A DNA stretch of 64,000 nucleotides. Origin: Bordetella genomosp. 1. Lineage in GTDB: Bacteria > Pseudomonadota > Gammaproteobacteria > Burkholderiales > Burkholderiaceae_B. The translations under genes and the position numbers were made by a program. Location of the stretch: positions 62,001-126,000 of the forward strand of contig NZ_NEVL01000004.1 of assembly GCF_002261335.1 (NCBI RefSeq), given 5' to 3'. This document shows, in pieces, positions 10,034 to 52,309 of this stretch (position 1 is its first letter; each line of letters starts with the position of its first letter). The notes beneath the pieces were generated by a model. It did not search any database. It saw nothing but the letters and a program-made list of their open reading frames with translations, and was not told the origin of the DNA.

Positions 10034-10155
10034 GGCTCGCTCCCTTCACAATAATTGCCAAATTGTAAGGGATTTCGACCCATCAGCTGTTGCGGTAACG
10101 TTTTACGACCGCGAAAGTAACGCAGTGCGACTTTAAAGTAACAGTGCCGCCCGGC

Positions 10156-11259
10156 TCAGGGCAGCGCCGCGTATCCGGTCGCGAAGTGATAGGGCGTGGT
10201 CGCCGGCATGTCGGGGCGCACCACCTGCCCCGCCGCGTCCAGGCATTCGTGCCAGCCACGCGCATGCAGAAAGCGCGCGCGCAACGCGCCGAGTTGCGCC
10301 GTCAGCGCGTGCCCGTCGCCGATGAGCGCCAGGTAGCGCGTGTATTCGGTCTGGGCCCAGACGCGCTCGACCGGGTCGCGCACCGCGCCGTCCAGATCGA
10401 GGGCCGCCACCACCGCATGCGTGTCGGCGCGCACGCCATGCTGGCGCGCCCACGCCGCGCCGCGCGCGATCGCGGCCTCGAGCTCGAGCCCGGCAAACAC
10501 GTCGGGCGCGCTGTCGAGCAAGGCAAACCATTCGAACTGATGGCCCGGCTCGATGCGGTTGGACGGCGTGCCCAGCGGCGCCTCCGCCACGCACAGCGCG
10601 GGCGCGTGCAGATAGAGATCCGCCACGCCCTGCACCACGCGCCGCAGTTGCTGCGCGAACCAGGCCGGCTCCGCCACGGCGGCCGCGGCCAGATAAGCCT
10701 CGGTCAGGTGCATCACCGGGTTCTGCTCGGGCCCGCGCAGCACCGCGCGCCAGTCGGCCGACAGCGCCGCCACGTAATGGCCGTCGGCGCGCCGGAACTG
10801 CGCCTCGATGTTCTGCGCGGTGGCGAGCAGCAGCTCGCGCGCCGCGGGGTTCTGGCTGCGGGCCAGCCACGCGGCGCAGGCAAACACCACGAAGGCGTGG
10901 GTGTAGAGATCCTGCGTCGTATCCAGCGGCGCGCCCGCCGCATCGATGCTGTAGTACCAGCCGCCATCCTGCGGATTGCGAAAGCGCTGCTGCAGCGAGG
11001 CGAACAGCGTTGCCGCGTGCGCGGCGGCCGCGGCGCCGGGTGCCACCGCATGCACGTAGAGCTGGCGCGCGCAGGCCATGGCGCGATAACGGGTGTCGGG
11101 CAATGCGGCGCCGGTCACGCCATCGAGCGATTCGTGCGCCAGCCCGAGCGCGTCGTTCCATCCGGCCTGCTGCCAGACCGGCAGGATGATCTCGGCGTAG
11201 TGTTGGCGGAGCGCTGCCGCGAGCGGTGCAGCGGCGGAGAGGGGCAAGGCGGAAGGCAT
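10156..11259 (-). CDS. AGE-family epimerase/isomerase (N-acylglucosamine 2-epimerase-like, 367 aa)
   Basis: (alpha/alpha)6-barrel sugar epimerase or isomerase. Family features include DGGWYYSIDAAGAP, TQDLYTHAFVVFACA, NPVMHLTEAYLAA, EPGHQFEWFALL (the His-Glu active-site segment) and VWAQTEYTRYLAL. Known members interconvert N-acetylglucosamine and N-acetylmannosamine, or mannose and fructose, or cellobiose units; the sequence does not settle which. I start at the ATG at 11259 (MPSALPLSAAAP); the longer frame adds a Pro/Arg-rich leader out of keeping with the family. It stands alone, with no sugar transporter or kinase beside it. Confidence 0.88.
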   Translation of the reverse strand: MPSALPLSAAAPLAAALRQHYAEIILPVWQQAGWNDALGLAHESLDGVTGAALPDTRYRAMACARQLYVHAVAPGAAAAAHAATLFASLQQRFRNPQDGGWYYSIDAAGAPLDTTQDLYTHAFVVFACAAWLARSQNPAARELLLATAQNIEAQFRRADGHYVAALSADWRAVLRGPEQNPVMHLTEAYLAAAAVAEPAWFAQQLRRVVQGVADLYLHAPALCVAEAPLGTPSNRIEPGHQFEWFALLDSAPDVFAGLELEAAIARGAAWARQHGVRADTHAVVAALDLDGAVRDPVERVWAQTEYTRYLALIGDGHALTAQLGALRARFLHARGWHECLDAAGQVVRPDMPATTPYHFATGYAALP

Positions 11260-43959: not shown

Positions 43960-44376
43960 ATGCTCAGATACCCCGCCACGATCGCACCCGACGGCGCCGG
44001 CTTCATGGCCTCGTTCCGCGACATCCCCGAGGCCCTCACCGGCGCAGCCACGCGCGAGGCCACGTTGCACATGGCCGCCGACGCCCTGGTCACGGCGCTC
44101 GATTTCTACTTCGACGACGGCCGCGCCATCCCCGCGCCGTCCAGGGCGCGGCCGGGCGAGGTGCTGGTGGCGCTGCCGGCCAGCGTGCAGGCCAAGGTGC
44201 TGCTGCTCAATGAGATGGTGAGCCAGGGCGTGTCGCGCGCGGAGCTGGCGCGCCGGCTCGGCACGCACAAGCAGGAAATCACGCGGCTGGTGAATCTGCA
44301 CCACGCCACCAAGATCGACACGCTCGCCGACGCGCTGCGCGCGCTCGGCCGCGAGCTCGACATGCGTCTGTGCTGA
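43960..44376 (+). CDS. hicB: HicB-family antitoxin (138 aa)
   Basis: 138-aa antitoxin. N-terminal partial RNase-H-like HicB domain (YPATIAPDGAGFMASFRDIPEALTGAATREATLHMAADALVTALDFYFDDGRAIP) and C-terminal HTH (VSRAELARRLGTHKQEITRLVNLHHATKI) that binds its own promoter. It should neutralise the HicA toxin immediately upstream. The pair follows the usual hicA-hicB order and reads into a region that ends before AdoMet decarboxylase on the other strand. Confidence 0.93.
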   Translation: MLRYPATIAPDGAGFMASFRDIPEALTGAATREATLHMAADALVTALDFYFDDGRAIPAPSRARPGEVLVALPASVQAKVLLLNEMVSQGVSRAELARRLGTHKQEITRLVNLHHATKIDTLADALRALGRELDMRLC

Positions 44377-44438: not shown

Positions 44439-44852
44439 TCAGCCGCGTTCGACCAGGGTCACGCGCGCGTCGGCCGGCGCCAGCGCCTCGCGCACGTGCG
44501 CCAGCGCGATGCGCGGGTCGGCGGCGCCGCACATGAACACGTCCAGCGCCGCGTAGCCCACCTCGGGCCAGGTGTGGATGCTGATATGCGATTCGCTCAG
44601 CATCACCACGCCGGTCACGCCGTTGCCGGCCGGGCCATCGTGGGCCGGGCTGCCGTCATCGAAACGATGGAAGTGCGCGCCCAGCACCTGCGCGCCGGCC
44701 ACCACGGCTGCGGCCACCAGCACGCTTTCCAGGCGCGCGGCATCGGCCAGAAGCGCCGGCGCGATGCCGTCGAGATCGGCCAGCACGTGGCGCCCTCGCG
44801 TGGTGTGGCGGGCCCGGGCGGCCTGCGCCGTGCGCTCCAGCACCTCGCTCAT
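44439..44852 (-). CDS. S-adenosylmethionine decarboxylase proenzyme, SpeH type (137 aa)
   Basis: Makes decarboxylated AdoMet, the aminopropyl donor. Self-cleaves at Glu87-Ser88 in SESHIS; Ser88, His93 and Cys108 match the catalytic Ser63, His68 and Cys83 of the Thermotoga enzyme. Length is right for the SpeH class. The start at 44852 overlaps the stop of the 48-aa gene (ATGA); the frame open from 44930 adds Gln/Gly-rich residues that belong to that gene. It sits in the DUF350/SPFH/DUF4178 unit, not beside a normal speE, so it likely feeds the membrane aminopropyltransferase. Confidence 0.92.
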   Translation of the reverse strand: MSEVLERTAQAARARHTTRGRHVLADLDGIAPALLADAARLESVLVAAAVVAGAQVLGAHFHRFDDGSPAHDGPAGNGVTGVVMLSESHISIHTWPEVGYAALDVFMCGAADPRIALAHVREALAPADARVTLVERG

Positions 44853-44995
44853 TTGTGCGATCCGCCCGAAGACCAGCCCGAGTGGCTGGAGCTGCTGCCC
44901 CAACTGCCGCTGCCGCCCGTGCTCGAGCATGAGCCCACGCTGGACGACAGCATGATCACGAACAGCGCATAGAACGCATACAGAAAGCGGCCCAC
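44849..44995 (-). CDS. Gly/Ser-rich single-helix membrane microprotein (48 aa)
   Basis: Starts at GTG 44995, one base after the stop of the DUF4178 gene (TGA-G-GTG), with GGGAG upstream, and its stop overlaps the AdoMet decarboxylase start (ATGA). One hydrophobic N-terminal helix (VGRFLYAFYALFVIMLSSSVG) is followed by a tail made almost wholly of Gly, Ser, Trp, His and Lys (28 of the last 28 residues fall in Ser, Gly, Trp, His, Thr, Lys, Cys). The coupled junctions on both sides make chance unlikely. Function unknown; the tail could be a flexible linker or a target for modification. Confidence 0.75.
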   Translation of the reverse strand: MGRFLYAFYALFVIMLSSSVGSCSSTGGSGSWGSSSSHSGWSSGGSHK

Positions 44996-44996
44996 C

Positions 44997-46454
44997 TCAT
45001 TCTCCCTTCTCGATGCGATCGGCGACCAGCGCCGGCACCCACAACGCGATCACGCCGATGATCATCGACAGGATGGCGCCGCCGCTCATGAGCCACAGCG
45101 CGATCGATCCGAACAGCGCCATGTTGGTGTACTTCACGCGCTTGCCCGATCCGCCGCCGCTCCCGCCGTGCCTGGCGAGCTCCGGACGGTTGAACCATTG
45201 CGCGATCTCGGCGCCGCTCACCTTCTGGCTGGCCGACCAGCCGAGCTCCTGTTCGGCGAGCTCGCTCGACAGCTTGCTCCCCTGCGTCGCCTCGTAGTCG
45301 GTGATGAGCGTCTTGTCGCCCACCTGCACGCGCCAGTTGAACGCGCCCAGCGCCACGTCCACGCGCGAGGTGTAGTCCCATTGCTTGCGATACACCTTGC
45401 CCTGGTAGCGCATGCCCTGCCCGGCGGCGACCGGCCAGGTGTCGCACACGCGCACCCGCTCCCAGCCCTCGTCGGTCTCCACCAGCCAGAGGAAGCCGGG
45501 CTTGGGCGCGTACAGCAGATACTCGATCCAGGTCGAGCCGTCCTCGGGATCCGGGTCGGTGCACTTGAGCATGCCGATCACGGTGTACTGCGCACCCGTG
45601 ATCGTGGCGGTCTGGCCGAGCGCCAGCGTGCCGCGGATCTTGTCCACCCGCTTGCTGGCGTCGATCACGACGGCGGTGTCGCCCGCGCAATCCACGGTCG
45701 AGCCGCAGCTCGGGCAGACCACCTGTGTGGCCATCGCCGCCACGATGCTGATCGTGCCGCCGCAATTCGGGCAGGCCAGCGCGCTGATCCGGCCGCGCAC
45801 GCGGCCCGCCTGGTCCAGCACCTGCTCGCGCGTGAGCAGCGTGGCCGCGTCCATGCCGGCCAGGTCGTAGGCCTTGCCGATATAGATCTCGGGTGTGTCG
45901 GCGTCGGAATAATCCAGCGTGAGGAACGCGTCGACGCTGCGGTAGTCGGCCACGCGGGCCGTCCAGCCCTGGCCGAACGTGAACGGCAACTCGCCTTCGG
46001 CCGAGGTCGCCGCGCAGGTCCGGATGTCGGCCGCGATGTACTCCTGGCCTTCCAGCTTGAACACCGAGCCCGGCTTGATCGCCTCGAACTGCGGCACCTT
46101 GGGCTTGCTGCTCTGCGCGCGGCGGCGATGCGTGATCGCATACTGGCCGCTCGCGTCCGACAGCCAGCCGGTCTGGCCGTCGTCGAACGCGATGAACCAT
46201 TCGTTCCAGAAGCCCGCCTCGTAGCGCAACTGGATGCGCCCCACCACCGTGAAGCGCAGGCGCTCGTAGGTGCCGGCCGCGCCCAGGCAGATCGGGCTGT
46301 AGTCTTCGAGCAGATCGCCGACCTCGCCGATGCGGCGCACCGTCTCGGCGTCTTTCATGAGCGTGCTGCGGCAGGCGCCGCACACCGCCATCACGGACGC
46401 GGTCGACTGGAAGCTGACCGGCGCGCCACACTGCGGACACAGGACCTGCATCAT
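44997..46454 (-). CDS. Double zinc-ribbon, double DUF4178 protein with C-terminal membrane anchor (485 aa)
   Basis: N-terminal zinc ribbon CPQC...CGAC (residues about 6-28), first DUF4178 domain (about 60-230) with FWNEWFIAFDDGQTGWLSDASGQY, second zinc ribbon CPNC...CPSC (about 231-255), second DUF4178 domain (about 275-410) with YLLYAPKPGFLWLVETDEGWERV, and two membrane helices near the C-terminus (MALFGSIALWLMSGGAILSMIIGVIALWVPALV). It follows the SPFH gene by 16 bp. Likely a membrane-attached scaffold or binding protein; no catalytic residues seen. Confidence 0.88.
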   Translation of the reverse strand: MMQVLCPQCGAPVSFQSTASVMAVCGACRSTLMKDAETVRRIGEVGDLLEDYSPICLGAAGTYERLRFTVVGRIQLRYEAGFWNEWFIAFDDGQTGWLSDASGQYAITHRRRAQSSKPKVPQFEAIKPGSVFKLEGQEYIAADIRTCAATSAEGELPFTFGQGWTARVADYRSVDAFLTLDYSDADTPEIYIGKAYDLAGMDAATLLTREQVLDQAGRVRGRISALACPNCGGTISIVAAMATQVVCPSCGSTVDCAGDTAVVIDASKRVDKIRGTLALGQTATITGAQYTVIGMLKCTDPDPEDGSTWIEYLLYAPKPGFLWLVETDEGWERVRVCDTWPVAAGQGMRYQGKVYRKQWDYTSRVDVALGAFNWRVQVGDKTLITDYEATQGSKLSSELAEQELGWSASQKVSGAEIAQWFNRPELARHGGSGGGSGKRVKYTNMALFGSIALWLMSGGAILSMIIGVIALWVPALVADRIEKGE

Positions 46455-46470
46455 CGGGTTCTGCGCCGCC

Positions 46471-47508
46471 TCAGCTCGTCAGTTTCTTCAGGATTTCGGC
46501 CTTGGCAGCCTCATACTCGGCGGCCGTGATCAGGTTCTGATCGGCCAGCGCCTTGAGCTGCTGCAGGCGCTGCACCGGATCGGCAGACGCGGCGCCCCCG
46601 GCCGCACCGGCAGCACCCACCGCTGCGGCCCCGGGCACGAGCGGCGCCGCCGCCTGCCCCAGCCCCTGCGCCATGGTCTGGCCTAGCGCCGCGCCGGCCG
46701 CCAGGCCCGCGCCGATGCCGGCGATGCCGCCTTCGTTCTGCGCCGCCAACGGAATCGAGCTCGCGGTCTGGTACTGCGTGAACTTGCCCAGGTCGCCCGC
46801 CATGCCCAGCGAAATGCGGGTGTCGAGCGCCTTCTGCAGCTCTTCCGGCAGCGACACGCTTTCCACGGTGAAGTTGTCGAGCTTCACGCCGTAGCGCTCG
46901 AACACGGGCGCCAGGGCCTGGCCGATGCGCTCGGACATCAGCCCCTGGTTGGCGGCCATGTCGATGAACGGCACGTTCGCGTTGCCCAGCGCCGATGCCA
47001 TCGAGGCCACCACCATGTTGCGCAGCTGGGCTTCGAGATCATCGACCGTGTAGACGTCGCGCGTGCCGCTGATCTCGCGATAGAACAGACCCGGGTCGGC
47101 GATCTGGTAGGAGTACACGCCGAAGGCGCGCACGCGCACCATGCCGAACTCGGCATCGCGCACCGTGACCGGCTGCGCCGTGCCCCAGCGCCGTCCCAGC
47201 TGCAGGCGGGTGCTGAAGAACACCACGTCCGACTTGAAGGGCGACTCGAACAGCTTGTCCCAGTTCTTCAGGTACGTGAGCACCGGCAGCGTCTGGGTCG
47301 TGAGCTTGTACATGCCGGGGCCGAACACATCGGCCACCTTGCCCTCGTTGATGAACACCGCCATCTGCGACTCGCGCACGGTCAGGCTGGCGCCATACTG
47401 GATTTCGAAGTCCTCCATGGGATGACGCCAGGCGAGCACGCCGTCGCCTTCCTCATTCCATTGGAGGATGTCTATGAACTGCTTGCGAATAAAAGAGCCC
47501 AGGCCCAT
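46471..47508 (-). CDS. SPFH-domain protein with C-terminal SHOCT (YdjI/virion-core-like, 345 aa)
   Basis: Stomatin/prohibitin/flotillin domain at about residues 50-230 (ESQMAVFINEGKVADVFGPGMYKLTTQTLPVLTYLKNW, then FSTRLQLGRRWGTAQPVTVRDAEFGMVRVRAFGVYSYQI). A Gly/Ala-rich linker follows, then a SHOCT helix pair (DPVQRLQQLKALADQNLITAAEYEAAKAEILKKL). Such proteins form membrane-associated oligomers. Start at 47508 follows CGGAGAACC. 16 bp before the DUF4178 gene and 34 bp after DUF350, so one transcript. Confidence 0.9.
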   Translation of the reverse strand: MGLGSFIRKQFIDILQWNEEGDGVLAWRHPMEDFEIQYGASLTVRESQMAVFINEGKVADVFGPGMYKLTTQTLPVLTYLKNWDKLFESPFKSDVVFFSTRLQLGRRWGTAQPVTVRDAEFGMVRVRAFGVYSYQIADPGLFYREISGTRDVYTVDDLEAQLRNMVVASMASALGNANVPFIDMAANQGLMSERIGQALAPVFERYGVKLDNFTVESVSLPEELQKALDTRISLGMAGDLGKFTQYQTASSIPLAAQNEGGIAGIGAGLAAGAALGQTMAQGLGQAAAPLVPGAAAVGAAGAAGGAASADPVQRLQQLKALADQNLITAAEYEAAKAEILKKLTS

Positions 47509-47542
47509 GACGGTTCTCCGGTGATCGGTTCGTGTCTACGGT

Positions 47543-47929
47543 TCAGGTCAGGCAGCCGGCATTCACGACGCCGGCGGCCAGCGAGATGGCGCCCAACAGC
47601 GCTCCCATGGCGAGATTGTTTTCCTCGATGGCCTCGTTCATGCCGCGCACGCAGAAGCTGAGCAGCGCATAGACCAGGATCTGGACGGCCATCGCGGCCA
47701 CGCCCCAGACGAGGAACATCGTGAAGGTGGCGTGCACGGCGATGCCCACGCCCACGGTGAAGCTGAAGCCCACCAGCGCGCCGCCGAACGACAGGGCCGC
47801 GGCCATGTTGCCCGCGCGGATGAGGTCGAACTCCTTGTGGCGGGTCACCGCAGTATAGATGGCGCTGAACGCGCCGAGCATGATCAGGCCAGTGACGATG
47901 TAGAGCAGATATGCCAATGCAGGATGCAT
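47543..47929 (-). CDS. DUF350 (YjfL-like) membrane protein (128 aa)
   Basis: Small inner-membrane protein with two DUF350-type helix pairs: ALAYLLYIVTGLIMLGAFSAIYTAVTRHKEFDLIRAGNMAAALSFGGALVGFSFTVGVGIAVHA, and VAAMAVQILVYALLSFCVRGMNEAIEENNLAMGALLGAISLAAGVVNAGC. The Glu-rich E-E-N-N motif between helices is family-specific. Start at 47929 (MHPALAYL). First gene of the leftward unit and 74 bp from the divergent aminopropyltransferase start. Function unknown; the family recurs beside polyamine and PspA-like genes. Confidence 0.88.
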   Translation of the reverse strand: MHPALAYLLYIVTGLIMLGAFSAIYTAVTRHKEFDLIRAGNMAAALSFGGALVGFSFTVGVGIAVHATFTMFLVWGVAAMAVQILVYALLSFCVRGMNEAIEENNLAMGALLGAISLAAGVVNAGCLT

Positions 47930-47951
47930 AAAGTCTCTCCAAAGAGTGGCG

Positions 47952-47980
47952 GCAGTATATAGCCTCGTTCGATATACTGC
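47952..47980. promoter_or_regulatory. Symmetric divergent promoter/operator
   Basis: GCAGTATAT (47952-47960) and ATATACTGC (47972-47980) are perfect inverted arms with an 11-base spacer. Each arm contains a TATACT -10 box facing outward, towards DUF350 on the minus strand and the aminopropyltransferase on the plus strand. No good -35 boxes are visible, so an activator is likely. Confidence 0.7.
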
Positions 47981-48003
47981 GCGCACTTGTCACGAGCACT
48001 TTC

Positions 48004-49515
48004 ATGCGCGACCGCGTCCTCATCCTTTCGGTTCTGATCGTCGCTTCCTGCGGCCTGGGCTACGAGCTGGTCAGCAGCGCGCTGGCCAGCTACCTGCTCG
48101 GCGATTCGATCCTGCAGTTCTCGTCGGTGATCGGCTGCTACCTGTTCGCGATGGGGATCGGCTCGTGGCTGTCCAAGTATATTCCCGACGACCAGGTGCT
48201 CGAACGCTTCATCGACGTGGAGCTGCTGGTGGCGCTGCTGGGCGGCGTCTCGGCCGCCGCGCTGTTCATGGTGTTTGCCTGGCTGGCCGCGCCGTTCCGC
48301 GCCGCGCTCTATGCCGGCGTGTTCCTGATCGGCATGATGGTGGGCATGGAGATACCGCTGGTCATGCGCGTGTTCCATCAGCGCCGCGCCGAGTTCCGCG
48401 ACATCGTGAGCCGCGTGCTGACCTTCGACTATCTCGGCGCCCTGGCCGTGTCGCTGGTGTTTCCGCTGCTGCTCGCGCCGCGCCTGGGCCTGTTGCGCAC
48501 CTCGTTCCTGTTCGGCATGCTGAACGCCGGCGTGGCGCTCTGGACCACCTGGCTATTTCGTAACGAAGTGCGACGCCCGGGCGAGCGCGCGATCCGCGCA
48601 GGCATCGTCATGGGCCTGCTCAGCCTGGGGTTCGCCTATTCCGGCCACATGACAGGCTGGGCCGAGAAAGGCCTCTACGGCGACGACGTGATCCATGCCG
48701 AGACCACGCCCTACCAGCGGCTGGTCGTGACGCGCTGGCACGACGACATGCGGCTCTACATCAACGGCAACCTGCAGTTCTCCTCGCACGACGAGCATCG
48801 CTACCACGAGTCGCTGGTGCATCCGGGCCTGGCCGCCCTGCCCTGGGCCCGCCGCGTCCTGGTGCTGGGCGGCGGCGACGGGCTCGCCGTGCGCGAGATC
48901 CTCAAGTATCCGCAGATCGAACACGTCACGCTGGTGGACCTGGATCCGGCCATGACCGGATTGTTCTCGACCTCCGAGCCGCTGGTCGCGCTCAACCAGG
49001 GCTCGCTCAAGGATCCGCGCGTCACGGTCGTCAACACCGACGCCGGCCGCTGGCTCGAGGAGCATGCCGAGGTCTACGACTTCATCGTGGTCGACTTCCC
49101 CGACCCGTCGAACTTCGGCCTGGGCCGGCTCTACTCGGTGCCGGTCTATCACCTGATGAGCCGCCACCTGGCCGAGAAGGGCTACATCGTGGTGCAGTCG
49201 ACCTCGCCGTATTTCGCGCCGCGCTCGTTCTGGAGCATCGACGCGACGCTCAAGGAGGCCGGCCTGCATACCTGGCCGTATCACGCCTACGTCCCGTCGT
49301 TCGGCGACTGGGGCTTCATCCTGGCCGGCAAGCGCGACGACTACGCCGTGCCCGCCAAGGTGCCGGTGGCCACGCGCTATCTCGACCCCGTGACCACGCG
49401 CGAGCTGTTCCACTTCCCGGCCGACATGCCGGCGCTCGCCATGCCGCCCAACCGCCTGAACGAACAGTCGCTGGTGCGTTACTTCGACGAAGACTGGCGC
49501 AAGGTCATCCGCTAA
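48004..49515 (+). CDS. Membrane-embedded spermidine-synthase-like aminopropyltransferase (503 aa)
   Basis: Six or seven membrane helices at about residues 5-230 (LILSVLIVASCGLGYELVSSALASYLLG, VIGCYLFAMGIGSWLSKYIP, GVFLIGMMVGMEIPLVMRVF), then a soluble aminopropyltransferase domain. It has the nucleotide loop VLGGGDGLAVREIL (about 287-300), acidic strand HVTLVDLDP, and the catalytic Asp in VVDFPDPSNFGLGRLYS (about 361-377). Predicted to transfer the aminopropyl group of decarboxylated AdoMet to a membrane-accessible amine. Shares one base (TAATG) with the next gene. Confidence 0.93.
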   Translation: MRDRVLILSVLIVASCGLGYELVSSALASYLLGDSILQFSSVIGCYLFAMGIGSWLSKYIPDDQVLERFIDVELLVALLGGVSAAALFMVFAWLAAPFRAALYAGVFLIGMMVGMEIPLVMRVFHQRRAEFRDIVSRVLTFDYLGALAVSLVFPLLLAPRLGLLRTSFLFGMLNAGVALWTTWLFRNEVRRPGERAIRAGIVMGLLSLGFAYSGHMTGWAEKGLYGDDVIHAETTPYQRLVVTRWHDDMRLYINGNLQFSSHDEHRYHESLVHPGLAALPWARRVLVLGGGDGLAVREILKYPQIEHVTLVDLDPAMTGLFSTSEPLVALNQGSLKDPRVTVVNTDAGRWLEEHAEVYDFIVVDFPDPSNFGLGRLYSVPVYHLMSRHLAEKGYIVVQSTSPYFAPRSFWSIDATLKEAGLHTWPYHAYVPSFGDWGFILAGKRDDYAVPAKVPVATRYLDPVTTRELFHFPADMPALAMPPNRLNEQSLVRYFDEDWRKVIR

Positions 49516-51149
49516 TGGACCGCCGCCGCCTGCTGCTGGGCGCGGCCGGCGCCGCCACCGTGGCGCTGGGCGGCGCCATCGGCTGGCACCGCCGCCGCAT
49601 CGTGCAGCCCGCCGCGCAACTGCGATATCCCGGCATGGAGGCCGGCCACGCCCTGCGCGACGGCGCGGCGCTGCCGCCCGCCGCCGGCACCCATCGCACC
49701 GGCATCGCCATCCTGGGCGCTGGCGTGGCGGGCCTGAGCTGCGCCTGGAAGCTGGCGCGCGAGGGCCGGCACGATTTCGTCGTGGTGAGCGGCCCCGAGT
49801 TCGGCGGCAATGCCGACGCGGGCCTGTACGGCGGCCTGGCCTATCCCCGCGGCGCCCACTACCTGCCGCTGCCCTCGCGCGAGTCGGGCCACGTGCGCGA
49901 GATGCTGGCCGACTTCGGCCTGATCCAGCGCGGCGCCGACAGCGCCGAGCCGTACTACGACGAGCGCGTGCTGGTGCACTCGCCGCAGGAGCGGCTGCTG
50001 CGCAACGGACGCTGGGAAGAGGCGCTGCTGCCGCTGCACGACGTGCCGCCCGAAGACCTGCGCCAGCACCAGCGCTTCGAGGCACTGGTCGACCGGTTGC
50101 GCACGCAACGGGGCAGCGACGGACGGCGCCTGTTCGCCGTCCCGCTCACGCTCTCCTCGGCCGACCCCGAGTGGCGCGCGCTGGACGCGCTCACGTTCAG
50201 CGCCTGGCTCGACCGCGAAGGCTATCGCGCGCCCACCCTGCGCTGGTATCTGGACTACTGCTGCCGCGACGACTACGGCGCCGGCACCGACACGGTGTCG
50301 GCCTGGGCGGGCCTGCACTACTTCGCCAGCCGCGACGGCCATGCCGCCAACGCCGCCGGCGGCGCGGTGCTCACCTGGCCGGGCGGCCTGGCGCCCCTGG
50401 TCAGCATGATGTGCGACGCGATCAGCGCCGCGCTCGGGCATCGCGACTGGCTGCTCGACGGCCTGGCGGCGCGCGCCGAGGTCGGCGATCGCGGCGCCCG
50501 CGTGCATTGCGTGGACGGCGCGCGCGGCTATGCGATCGAGGCCGCGCGCCTGGTGAGCGCCATGCCGCTGGCCGTGGCCGCGCGCGTGCTGCCGCCGCTG
50601 CGGCGCTGGGGCTACGACGTGCGCGACCACGCCAGCCCGCACGCCGCTTGGCTGGTGTCCAGCTTCATGATGCAGAGCTACCCCGTGGAGCAGCCGGGCG
50701 AGCCGCTGGCATGGGACAACGTGGTCTACGAAGGCCAGGCGCTCGGCTATGTCGTGTCCACCCACCAGTTGCTGCGCGTGGCGCCCTCGCCGCGCACGGT
50801 GTTCACCGCCTACCAGGCCCTCTCGAAGATGAGCCCGGGCGTGGCGCGGCAGTGGCTGCTCGCGGCCGACGCCGAGACGCTGCGCGAGGCGGCCTCGGCC
50901 GACCTGATCGCCGCCTACGGCGAGGCGTTCTGGCGCCACGCCGACGCGCTCGAAATCACCGCGCGCGGCCACGCCATGGCCACGCCGGCGCCGGGCTATC
51001 TCTCCAACCCCGGCCTGGCCGCGCTGCGCGAGGCCGACGGCGTGGTGCAGTTCGCCCACGCCGACCTGTCGGGCTACTCCGTGTTCGAAGAGGCGGCGTG
51101 GTGGGGCGTGCGTGCCGCGCACCGCCTGCTGGACGCGCCGGCCGGCTAG
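49515..51149 (+). CDS. Tat-type FAD-dependent oxidoreductase, amine-oxidase-like (544 aa)
   Basis: Twin-arginine signal MDRRRLLLGAAGAATVALGGA, then the FAD-binding GAGVAGLSCAWKLA (about residues 71-84) and a later flavin-binding-fold stretch ending HADLSGYSVFEEAAWWGVRAAHRLLD, typical of flavin amine oxidases. Export folded with FAD to the periplasm is likely. Overlaps the aminopropyltransferase stop by one base, so translation is coupled. It may oxidise the polyamine made by that enzyme. Its stop shares the CTAG with the convergent gene. Confidence 0.88.
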   Translation: MDRRRLLLGAAGAATVALGGAIGWHRRRIVQPAAQLRYPGMEAGHALRDGAALPPAAGTHRTGIAILGAGVAGLSCAWKLAREGRHDFVVVSGPEFGGNADAGLYGGLAYPRGAHYLPLPSRESGHVREMLADFGLIQRGADSAEPYYDERVLVHSPQERLLRNGRWEEALLPLHDVPPEDLRQHQRFEALVDRLRTQRGSDGRRLFAVPLTLSSADPEWRALDALTFSAWLDREGYRAPTLRWYLDYCCRDDYGAGTDTVSAWAGLHYFASRDGHAANAAGGAVLTWPGGLAPLVSMMCDAISAALGHRDWLLDGLAARAEVGDRGARVHCVDGARGYAIEAARLVSAMPLAVAARVLPPLRRWGYDVRDHASPHAAWLVSSFMMQSYPVEQPGEPLAWDNVVYEGQALGYVVSTHQLLRVAPSPRTVFTAYQALSKMSPGVARQWLLAADAETLREAASADLIAAYGEAFWRHADALEITARGHAMATPAPGYLSNPGLAALREADGVVQFAHADLSGYSVFEEAAWWGVRAAHRLLDAPAG

Positions 51150-52144
51150 CCCGCCACGCCGTTGGCGAGTGCGGCGGCCAGCGTCAGCCACATCACGCTG
51201 GAGGCGGCGAGCGCGAATTGCCAGCCGCGCTCGCGGCCCTGCGCCTCCTGCCCCTCGGGTTCCTTCGGCTCGGCCGGCGCCTCCGGCGCACACGCGGCTG
51301 AAAGCTCGGCCGGCCACGCCGGATGCGGCGCGCGGCGCCGAAAGCCGTATTCCAGCGCGAACGGCAGCGCCAGCACGGCCACCAGCGCCCGGCCCGCGTG
51401 ATGAAGCAGGCGCTTGAGCAGACCGGGCGGCCGCGCGATCGAGGGCGCGCCGCCCGCCAGCGCGGCGGCCTGCGATTCGAACCAGGCGGCCAGCGTGGCC
51501 GCCGAATGCGGTTGCGCCCGCAACGGTGCGGGATCGACCTCGCCCGCCATGAACGCGCGCAGCCAGGCCCAGCGCGCCGCGCAGGCCTGCGCCGAGCCCA
51601 GCCCCGCGCCCAGCAGCAACACCCCGTCGACGGTGCCCGGCACTTCGACGGTCAGCATGTCGTGGATCACGGCGCCATACGGCCCGGGCTGGCTGATGCG
51701 GCGCACGCTGGGCCGGGCGGTATCGAAGTCGACGCGGGTCCAGCCATGCTTGCGCGACCAGGAGTAGAACGCCCGCAGCCTGCGGCTCGCGATCAGCGCG
51801 TCGATCACCGGCGCCCGGGCCGACAGGCGCGCCCCCAGCGCGCTCAGCACCGCGAGCGCGGTCAGCAGCGCCACCATGCCCCATTGCGACGCGTCGGGCG
51901 CGGCAAGACGCGCCACCGCGACGGCGCTGCCGATCGCCAGCGCCAGCAAGGCGCCGCTCAGGAGCCACAGCGTCGCCCCCAGGAAATGCCCCGGCTCCGG
52001 CACGGGCAGCGGCAGCACCAGGCAGTCGGCATCGCAGCGGGTCGGCACGGCGTGCAGGACGGGCGCCACGTCCATCGGCGCACCCGCCGCCGGCAAGGGC
52101 GTCACGTCGAGCTCGCGCATCAGGGCGACGCGTTCCAGCCTCAT
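51146..52144 (-). CDS. Membrane protein of unknown function, possibly DUF6708-like (332 aa)
   Basis: Two closely spaced hydrophobic helices at about residues 55-105 (FLGATLWLLSGALLALAIGSAVAVARL, WGMVALLTALAVLSALGARL), then a soluble segment RRLRAFYSWSRKHGWTRVDFDTARPSVRR and WAWLRAFMAGE that recalls DUF6708, and further hydrophobic stretches near the C-terminus (LVAVLALPFALEYGF, FALAASSVMWLTLAAALANGV). Start at 52144 (MRLERVALMREL) is preferred to the Pro/Arg/Cys-rich upstream extension. Whether it belongs to the polyamine system is unclear. Confidence 0.72.
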   Translation of the reverse strand: MRLERVALMRELDVTPLPAAGAPMDVAPVLHAVPTRCDADCLVLPLPVPEPGHFLGATLWLLSGALLALAIGSAVAVARLAAPDASQWGMVALLTALAVLSALGARLSARAPVIDALIASRRLRAFYSWSRKHGWTRVDFDTARPSVRRISQPGPYGAVIHDMLTVEVPGTVDGVLLLGAGLGSAQACAARWAWLRAFMAGEVDPAPLRAQPHSAATLAAWFESQAAALAGGAPSIARPPGLLKRLLHHAGRALVAVLALPFALEYGFRRRAPHPAWPAELSAACAPEAPAEPKEPEGQEAQGRERGWQFALAASSVMWLTLAAALANGVAG

Positions 52145-52309
52145 TGCGGCTGCCTCCAGGCAAGGGGACACGCGTGCACGGCGGGGGACGGCAGGAACAG
52201 CGGCATGGGCGCAGGCGCGGCGAGGGAAGAAGCCGATCATTTTGCGCGAGAACGCGCGGGCTCGCCACCCGGCGGTGAATCGCCGCCCGCGCCGCGACGC
52301 GCCGGCGGC

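Follow-up and report, generated by a model that had tools for sequence, protein, structure and literature searches.

A lysine-ended tail protein as candidate acceptor of a membrane-bound aminopropyltransferase system in Bordetella genomosp. 1

INTRODUCTION

Spermidine-synthase-like enzymes fused to membrane helices are widespread, and the identity of the acceptor of their aminopropyl groups is a standing question, raised in the text of Ravi et al. (2024; PMC11237479) and reportedly also by Li et al. in 2019. We addressed it at one locus of Bordetella genomosp. 1. The window, i.e., the whole stretch of DNA that was analyzed, comprises 64,000 nucleotides (contig NZ_NEVL01000004.1, positions 62,001 to 126,000), and its positions 44439 to 51149 carry seven genes in two divergent units. 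One of them encodes such an enzyme, hereafter called APT for aminopropyltransferase. The analysis points to a membrane-bound protein-modification system, in which the C-terminal lysine of a small tail protein would be aminopropylated and perhaps then oxidized. We hold this reading tentatively, as possible but somewhat short of probable.

Domains were assigned to the cluster proteins by Pfam and NCBIfam profile searches with curated cut-offs. The features of the locus, with the basis of each call, are as follows.

44439..44852, minus strand: speD, class 1b S-adenosylmethionine (AdoMet) decarboxylase, 137 aa (Pfam/NCBIfam, sequence)
44849..44995, minus strand: 48-aa single-helix tail protein, GTG start (translation, sequence)
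44997..46454, minus strand: DUF4178 protein with zinc-ribbon-like segments and, by eye, C-terminal hydrophobic segment(s) (Pfam)
46471..47508, minus strand: SPFH/band-7 (Band_7_1) protein with a SHOCT-like C terminus (Pfam)
47543..47929, minus strand: DUF350 membrane protein (Pfam)
47953..47979, no strand: inverted repeat with 8-base arms and an 11-base spacer (sequence, comparison with relatives)
48004..49515, plus strand: membrane aminopropyltransferase (APT), NF002956/PRK03612, seven helices and a spermidine-synthase-fold domain (NCBIfam, predicted model)
49515..51149, plus strand: twin-arginine translocation (Tat)-signal flavin adenine dinucleotide (FAD) enzyme with an amine-oxidase fold (Pfam, predicted model)

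RESULTS AND DISCUSSION

A tail protein ending in lysine accompanies APT in most clusters

The 48-aa protein consists, on its translation, of one hydrophobic helix followed by a Gly/Ser tail that ends in -GGSHK, and the stop codon of its gene overlaps the ATG start of speD. An open reading frame (ORF) ending in HK directly followed the DUF4178 gene in 73/73 assessable loci of this divergent type that have DUF4178. The final lysine was the sole lysine among the last 25 residues in 72 of 74 sequences, window included. Ratios of nonsynonymous to synonymous changes (pN/pS) were 0.254, 0.274, and 0.370 in three genus groups and 0.515 between the window and locus L020; these substitution rates indicate that the ORF is a real gene. 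No Pfam or NCBIfam family scored above its cut-off for the tail proteins tried, the window protein included.

Similar ends were found on proteins of other builds. In L117, L118, L120, L121, L122, L129, and L133, DUF4178 itself ends in this tail as a fusion, and other APT clusters encode small membrane proteins ending in VK, IK, or GK, or signal-peptide lipoproteins with a Ser/Arg/Gly-rich tail ending in GK. We compared 14 tail carriers after removing their tails before the similarity search. Those of L141, L145, L151, L188, and L201 formed one large-lipoprotein family, with weak similarity to the L159 protein, and L190/L198 and L131/L137 formed pairs. No similarity to the other carriers compared was detected for those of L125 and L127, for the DUF4178 fusion, or for the window protein, a result that is weak for the window protein because the query is short.

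The pattern was then counted with a filter that retained ORFs on the APT strand within 6 kb, with a hydrophobic segment and at least 15 of the last 25 residues drawn from GSRNTKHQ. The broad set comprised 38 loci; it left out L126, which lies on a short contig, and the divergent-type loci L020 to L025, L115, and L116, whose tails are on the strand opposite APT and end in HK. Among ORFs passing the filter, 35/50 ended in lysine on the APT strand versus 1/47 on the opposite strand. By locus, a lysine tail was present in 34/38 versus 1/38, and L123, added by eye, raised the former to 35/38. A held-out set examined with the same filter gave 12/18 loci versus 0/18 on the opposite strand (13/18 with L185, accepted by eye slightly below the threshold). 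Plasmid records yielded 13 matches, eight of which were read; L160 contained an APT fragment only, and L162, with its tail beyond range, was left unjudged. Lysine-ended tails were seen in six of the eight, three at or clearly over the filter threshold and the others by eye, including a Gemmatirosa plasmid as a single case from another phylum. A looser threshold on the plasmids brought up three more lysine-ended ORFs (L157, L158, and L159), chance-like in appearance.

As a specificity control, we used 20 ATP-grasp loci defined by PF03738. None of the 33 tails on the ligase strand ended in lysine, whereas 14 ended in Gly and 10 in Ser (Fisher p 9.5e-12 for lysine ends in APT versus ATP-grasp loci). 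Escherichia coli YjfM and YgiB, encoded beside RefSeq-named peptide-spermidine ligases, both end in GG. What is new here is the lysine-ended partner and the way it sets APT loci apart from ATP-grasp loci, and on this sequence pattern the tail protein appears to be the best candidate for the acceptor.

Apart from their ends, which are mostly Gly/Ser, many tail proteins of the ATP-grasp loci (L165 to L184; E. coli K-12, L163:8388-9026 and L164:745-1416) contain, ahead of the end, an RGGFG-like internal motif.

APT probably holds its catalytic domain outside the inner membrane

APT scored 703 bits with NF002956 (cut-off 472; model positions 19 to 521 of 522), a family named polyamine aminopropyltransferase. 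Its catalytic part matched solved aminopropyltransferases by sequence and by predicted fold, with 1uir and 3anx as top folds. A fold search with the whole protein returned only soluble aminopropyltransferases among the 50 matches listed and left the helical domain without a classification. In 48 diverse APTs, Y267, D292, D346, D364, D367, and Q398 showed no variation, and Q238 and Y426 almost none; in spermidine synthase these residues bind donor and acceptor. E116 and D142, which lie inside predicted helices, were also invariant, and such intramembrane acidic residues would suit a cationic ligand.

The AlphaFold model of APT (mean pLDDT 91.4, pTM 0.77) has seven long N-terminal helices, the higher figure of the "six or seven" in the original prediction. 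An excess of Lys and Arg in the N-terminal-side loops, found in 48/48 sequences, would by the charge rule put the N terminus inside and the domain that follows helix seven on the outer side. On this pattern the catalytic domain is probably on the outer face of the inner membrane, together with the tail and the Tat oxidase. The low Cys content of the catalytic domain (0.09%) was considered as further topology evidence and set aside as weak, since Cys is absent from the SPFH protein too (0.0%).

The FAD enzyme is predicted to be exported and to have an amine-oxidase fold

The APT stop and the FAD enzyme start share one base at 49515, in keeping with the proposed translational coupling. The FAD enzyme contains NAD_binding_8 and Amino_oxidase domains. 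Its description as a Tat-type protein is supported by the twin arginine, invariant in 36 aligned FAD proteins, window included; in a larger set, RR occurred within the first 20 residues of 98/98, although the assigned start of the L087 protein is probably wrong, and 36/98 have a lipoprotein-like Cys. The model (mean pLDDT 92.9) has the flavin amine oxidase fold. Its nearest match is putrescine oxidase; further amine oxidases lie close by, as do protoporphyrinogen oxidase and phytoene desaturase. The predicted fold thus suits an amine substrate; it does not prove one, because protoporphyrinogen oxidase and phytoene desaturase share it.

SpeD would supply the aminopropyl donor

SpeD belongs to the class 1b family (AdoMet_dc/TIGR03330, 112.5 bits; cut-off 75.65) and is the sole PF02675 match and the sole AdoMet decarboxylase in the window genome. 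Ser88, His93, and Cys108, catalytic in AdoMet decarboxylases, are present and correctly numbered in the original prediction for a start at 44852, His and Cys being read from the same translation. An AdoMet decarboxylase was found in 45 of 48 APT-bearing genomes, class 1 in 38 and class 2 (eukaryote-type) in 7 of the other 10, an association that agrees with the coupling of the two enzymes first proposed from sequence. The background for class 1 was 46/200 genomes, in a sample that includes APT-bearing ones. Family, catalytic residues, and co-occurrence suggest that SpeD would supply decarboxylated AdoMet, with the reservation that SpeD homologs acting on other substrates are described in the text of a published study (PMC10407285).

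The partner of SpeD in this cluster is not a soluble SpeE as in a housekeeping spermidine operon but a protein with seven helices. The statement that no ornithine or arginine decarboxylase accompanies these genes is true of the cluster and not of the genome, which encodes one OKR-type decarboxylase outside the window. The genome also has a single PF02784 match, diaminopimelate decarboxylase-like by eye, and three Spermine_synth matches, two of them beyond APT. One (G000:C3:352525-352950, L003) has an altered acidic motif, with DGYVVGG in place of the DFPDP of the cluster enzyme; the other (G000:C4:489041-490324, L004 and L019) lies in an 856-aa frame and scored 29.7 bits. Housekeeping spermidine synthesis as the sole role was retained only as a rival, because it leaves the tail pattern unexplained.

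The unit is conserved as a whole and accessory in the genus

The profile searches bore out the seven genes in two divergent units and placed the domains as predicted. Band_7_1 scored 247.9 bits in the SPFH protein, with a SHOCT match slightly under its cut-off; the zinc-ribbon matches in the DUF4178 protein were likewise under theirs; and the DUF350 protein (104.6 bits) was the sole DUF350 match in the window genome.

Conservation was counted on the best 80 loci of a scan of named genomes, where the closest relatives among the matches listed were from Achromobacter, with a Bordetella also listed. A FAD homolog was downstream of APT in 80/80. Loci with more than 3.7 kb on the other side were assessable for the other unit (n = 72), and 68 of them carried speD, DUF4178, SPFH, DUF350, and FAD genes alongside APT, a grouping beyond chance; in the remaining four (L041, L058, L070, and L105) only speD was missing nearby. 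High-identity APT was present in 4 of 15 sampled genomes of the genus, its own included, and the unit is therefore accessory. The earlier interpretation was partly supported: the conserved unit stands and the seventh gene had been counted, but its nature as a tail protein ending in HK had been missed, and the symmetric control site is doubtful (see below).

Two variant loci were noted. In L026 (8180-13685), SPFH and DUF4178 genes are on the APT strand, no DUF350 or speD was found nearby, and a separate small ORF (10039-10233) encodes a lysine-ended tail, LSHK. On an Alteromonas mediterranea plasmid (L159:7944-14602), genes for APT, SpeD, a toxic anion resistance protein, DUF4178, and DUF350 are accompanied by one for a coiled-coil-like 510-aa protein ending in SSGK.

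Proposed modification of the terminal lysine

In the reading that we favor, SpeD would make decarboxylated AdoMet. The seven-helix APT, its catalytic domain probably facing outward from the inner membrane, would transfer aminopropyl groups to the lysine that ends the tail, here the tail of the 48-aa protein, at the amine of the side chain. The Tat-exported enzyme with the amine-oxidase fold would then oxidize or trim the product outside, while the SPFH, DUF4178, and DUF350 proteins may hold, organize, or gate the membrane site. The acceptor, the side of the membrane, the passage of the donor, the oxidase substrate, and the scaffold roles are what we infer. Lysine carries on its side chain the four-carbon amine also present in putrescine, and its position at the very end of the chain would fit a narrow pocket.

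A more specific form of this proposal appears possible, though we regard it as doubtful. It would be a new posttranslational modification, in which the C-terminal lysine of an envelope tail is aminopropylated outside the inner membrane by a transporter-like APT that itself carries decarboxylated AdoMet across; the partner oxidase may yield a reactive aldehyde, and the sister ATP-grasp systems would modify the C-terminal carboxylate of the tail instead. If true, the last residue, Lys or Gly/Ser, would tell which chemistry applies, that of APT or that of the ATP-grasp enzymes. Decarboxylated AdoMet would also gain a function beyond the making of polyamines and might, as donor, pass across a membrane, and bacteria would have a protein modification chemically related to hypusine. 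Since most APT clusters have a lysine-ended partner and the ATP-grasp loci read have none, the acceptor question becomes testable by mass spectrometry.

Hypusine and the modified lysines of silaffins carry a polyamine-derived group on the lysine side chain, and silaffin peptides are rich in Ser. The system proposed here differs from both in its enzymes and in being set at a bacterial membrane with a C-terminal lysine. No paper on lysine aminopropylation or on a lysine-ended APT partner was found in the literature searched, which left most subscription papers and the supplements outside its scope and included little searching for the modification by name.

The system that Li et al. described in 2019 is said to have combined a functional AdoMet decarboxylase with a membrane spermidine-synthase-like fusion and DUF350, to have yielded no spermidine, and to have failed to complement a speE mutant. 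Its acceptor was reportedly proposed to be something other than putrescine, and none was named. The three components are shared with the window, where an acceptor candidate is now offered. Ravi et al. (2024; PMC11237479) describe in their text operons of SpdSyn-7TM, DUF350, and DUF4178, and band-7 variants with an AdoMet decarboxylase and a polyamine oxidase, for which they propose polyamine sensing or aminopropylation of other substrates. The broad reading of the cluster, an AdoMet decarboxylase working with a membrane APT and DUF350 in something other than ordinary spermidine synthesis, is thus already in print there and, reportedly, in the 2019 work.

According to that text, the systems of Ravi et al. 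have in common with the window a transmembrane-fused spermidine-synthase-like protein, DUF350, DUF4178, a band-7 protein with SHOCT, an AdoMet decarboxylase, and an oxidase, and the fusion, DUF350, and DUF4178 that together mark their group all occur in our cluster. In contrast, their DUF4178 group has PspA and CesT, and they place the band-7 variant among the ATP-grasp systems. The window cluster has neither feature: none of its seven proteins matched PspA or CesT in Pfam or NCBIfam, so that the CesT/Tir-PspA dyad is absent, and PF03738 (ATP-grasp, glutathionylspermidine-synthetase-like) had no match in the window genome. We therefore consider the cluster a variant of the described groups. 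The text, figures and tables aside, makes no mention of a tail protein's final lysine or of a catalytic domain placed outside.

The YjfC/YgiC peptide-spermidine ligases with YjfM/YgiB, reportedly the subject of Pederick et al. (2023), resemble the window cluster in that a polyamine enzyme adjoins an exported protein with a low-complexity tail, and yjfC shares one gene run with a DUF350 gene, yjfL. They differ in their ATP-grasp chemistry and in tails that end mostly in Gly or Ser, with none ending in Lys in the 20 loci read.

Counterevidence and alternative explanations

Several points weigh against aminopropylation of the tail. The first examples were already in view when the tail filter was written, which is why the second sample was drawn with the filter unchanged, and related loci are not independent, so that p-values overstate the evidence; the spread of the tail over differently built carriers is the stronger argument. 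With profiles built from close relatives, the FAD enzyme was not found in the majority of distant clusters. No lysine-ended tail was found near APT in L119, L143, and L144 of the broad set or in L189, L191, L192, L193, and L195 of the held-out set, although in L189, L192, L193, and L195 the contig or stretch stops within 6 kb of APT. Homologs of both PspA and CesT are encoded in L144, L189, L191, and L195, and of CesT alone in L193, and none of these five matched the DUF350 or lipoprotein queries used. The eight enzymes are not merely stray single genes, because five of them adjoin CesT or PspA homologs; a form of the system without a tail within the next few genes exists.

The acceptor pocket retains the residues of spermidine synthase, so small amines could be the substrate. 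APT might then be a membrane-anchored synthase of spermidine or another small polyamine whose product acts at the envelope, with the oxidase setting its level and the lysine tail serving as a docking or sensing part. This would agree with the family name of NF002956, with the catalytic fold and residues shared with solved enzymes, with an OKR-type decarboxylase that could supply putrescine, with putrescine oxidase among the fold relatives of the oxidase, and with the APT-CesT-PspA loci that have no tail nearby. We nevertheless judge it rather unlikely: it leaves unexplained why differently built tail proteins end in lysine and none of the ATP-grasp tails do, and neither spermidine formation nor speE complementation is said to have been seen in 2019. 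The acceptor could instead be another amine of the membrane or envelope, such as an aminophospholipid or a wall amine, with the tail protein recruiting or activating the enzyme. A membrane-bound APT among SPFH and DUF350 proteins fits this explanation, and the text of Ravi et al. suggests that membrane structure is changed by polyamine levels or by the aminopropylation of other substrates. The pocket residues, however, match those of enzymes acting on linear amines, and no positive evidence for a lipid acceptor turned up, in an analysis without a search aimed at one; we consider such an acceptor unlikely.

The assignment of an outside catalytic domain requires the donor to cross the membrane, for which there is no known route, and the topology of APT rests on the charge rule and one model. 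The first point would be accommodated by a cytoplasmic system, in which the seventh helix does not span the membrane and the tail either acquires its modification before being exported or encounters the enzyme inside. By eye, SpeD lacks a signal peptide; its product arises inside the cell, and the pTM of the APT model leaves room for such an arrangement. Seven hydrophobic segments and the charge pattern shared by 48/48 sequences argue against it, as do lipoprotein-type tails and a Tat oxidase on the outer side, and we find it distinctly improbable. Aminopropylation of the terminal lysine on the outer face thus remains our preferred, if tentative, reading.

The intergenic repeat and the flanking genes

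The repeat CAGTATAT-11-ATATACTG between the two units is present as predicted, but its reading as one symmetric control site fared less well. Among 20 relatives inspected by eye, six have a perfect form with 9- to 10-base arms and one a 7-base form. Four retain chiefly the half on the APT side and three the opposite half, and six have neither half. Because relatives retain one half or the other, a single symmetric operator is less fitting, and the repeat probably represents two back-to-back, divergent -10 elements.

After the FAD enzyme gene, a 364-aa ORF (51146-52240) has a weak DUF6708 match (19 bits; cut-off 27) and no homolog among the best 80 named loci scanned. On the other side, immediately outside the cluster, positions 43960 to 44376 encode a HicB-like protein with a helix-turn-helix.

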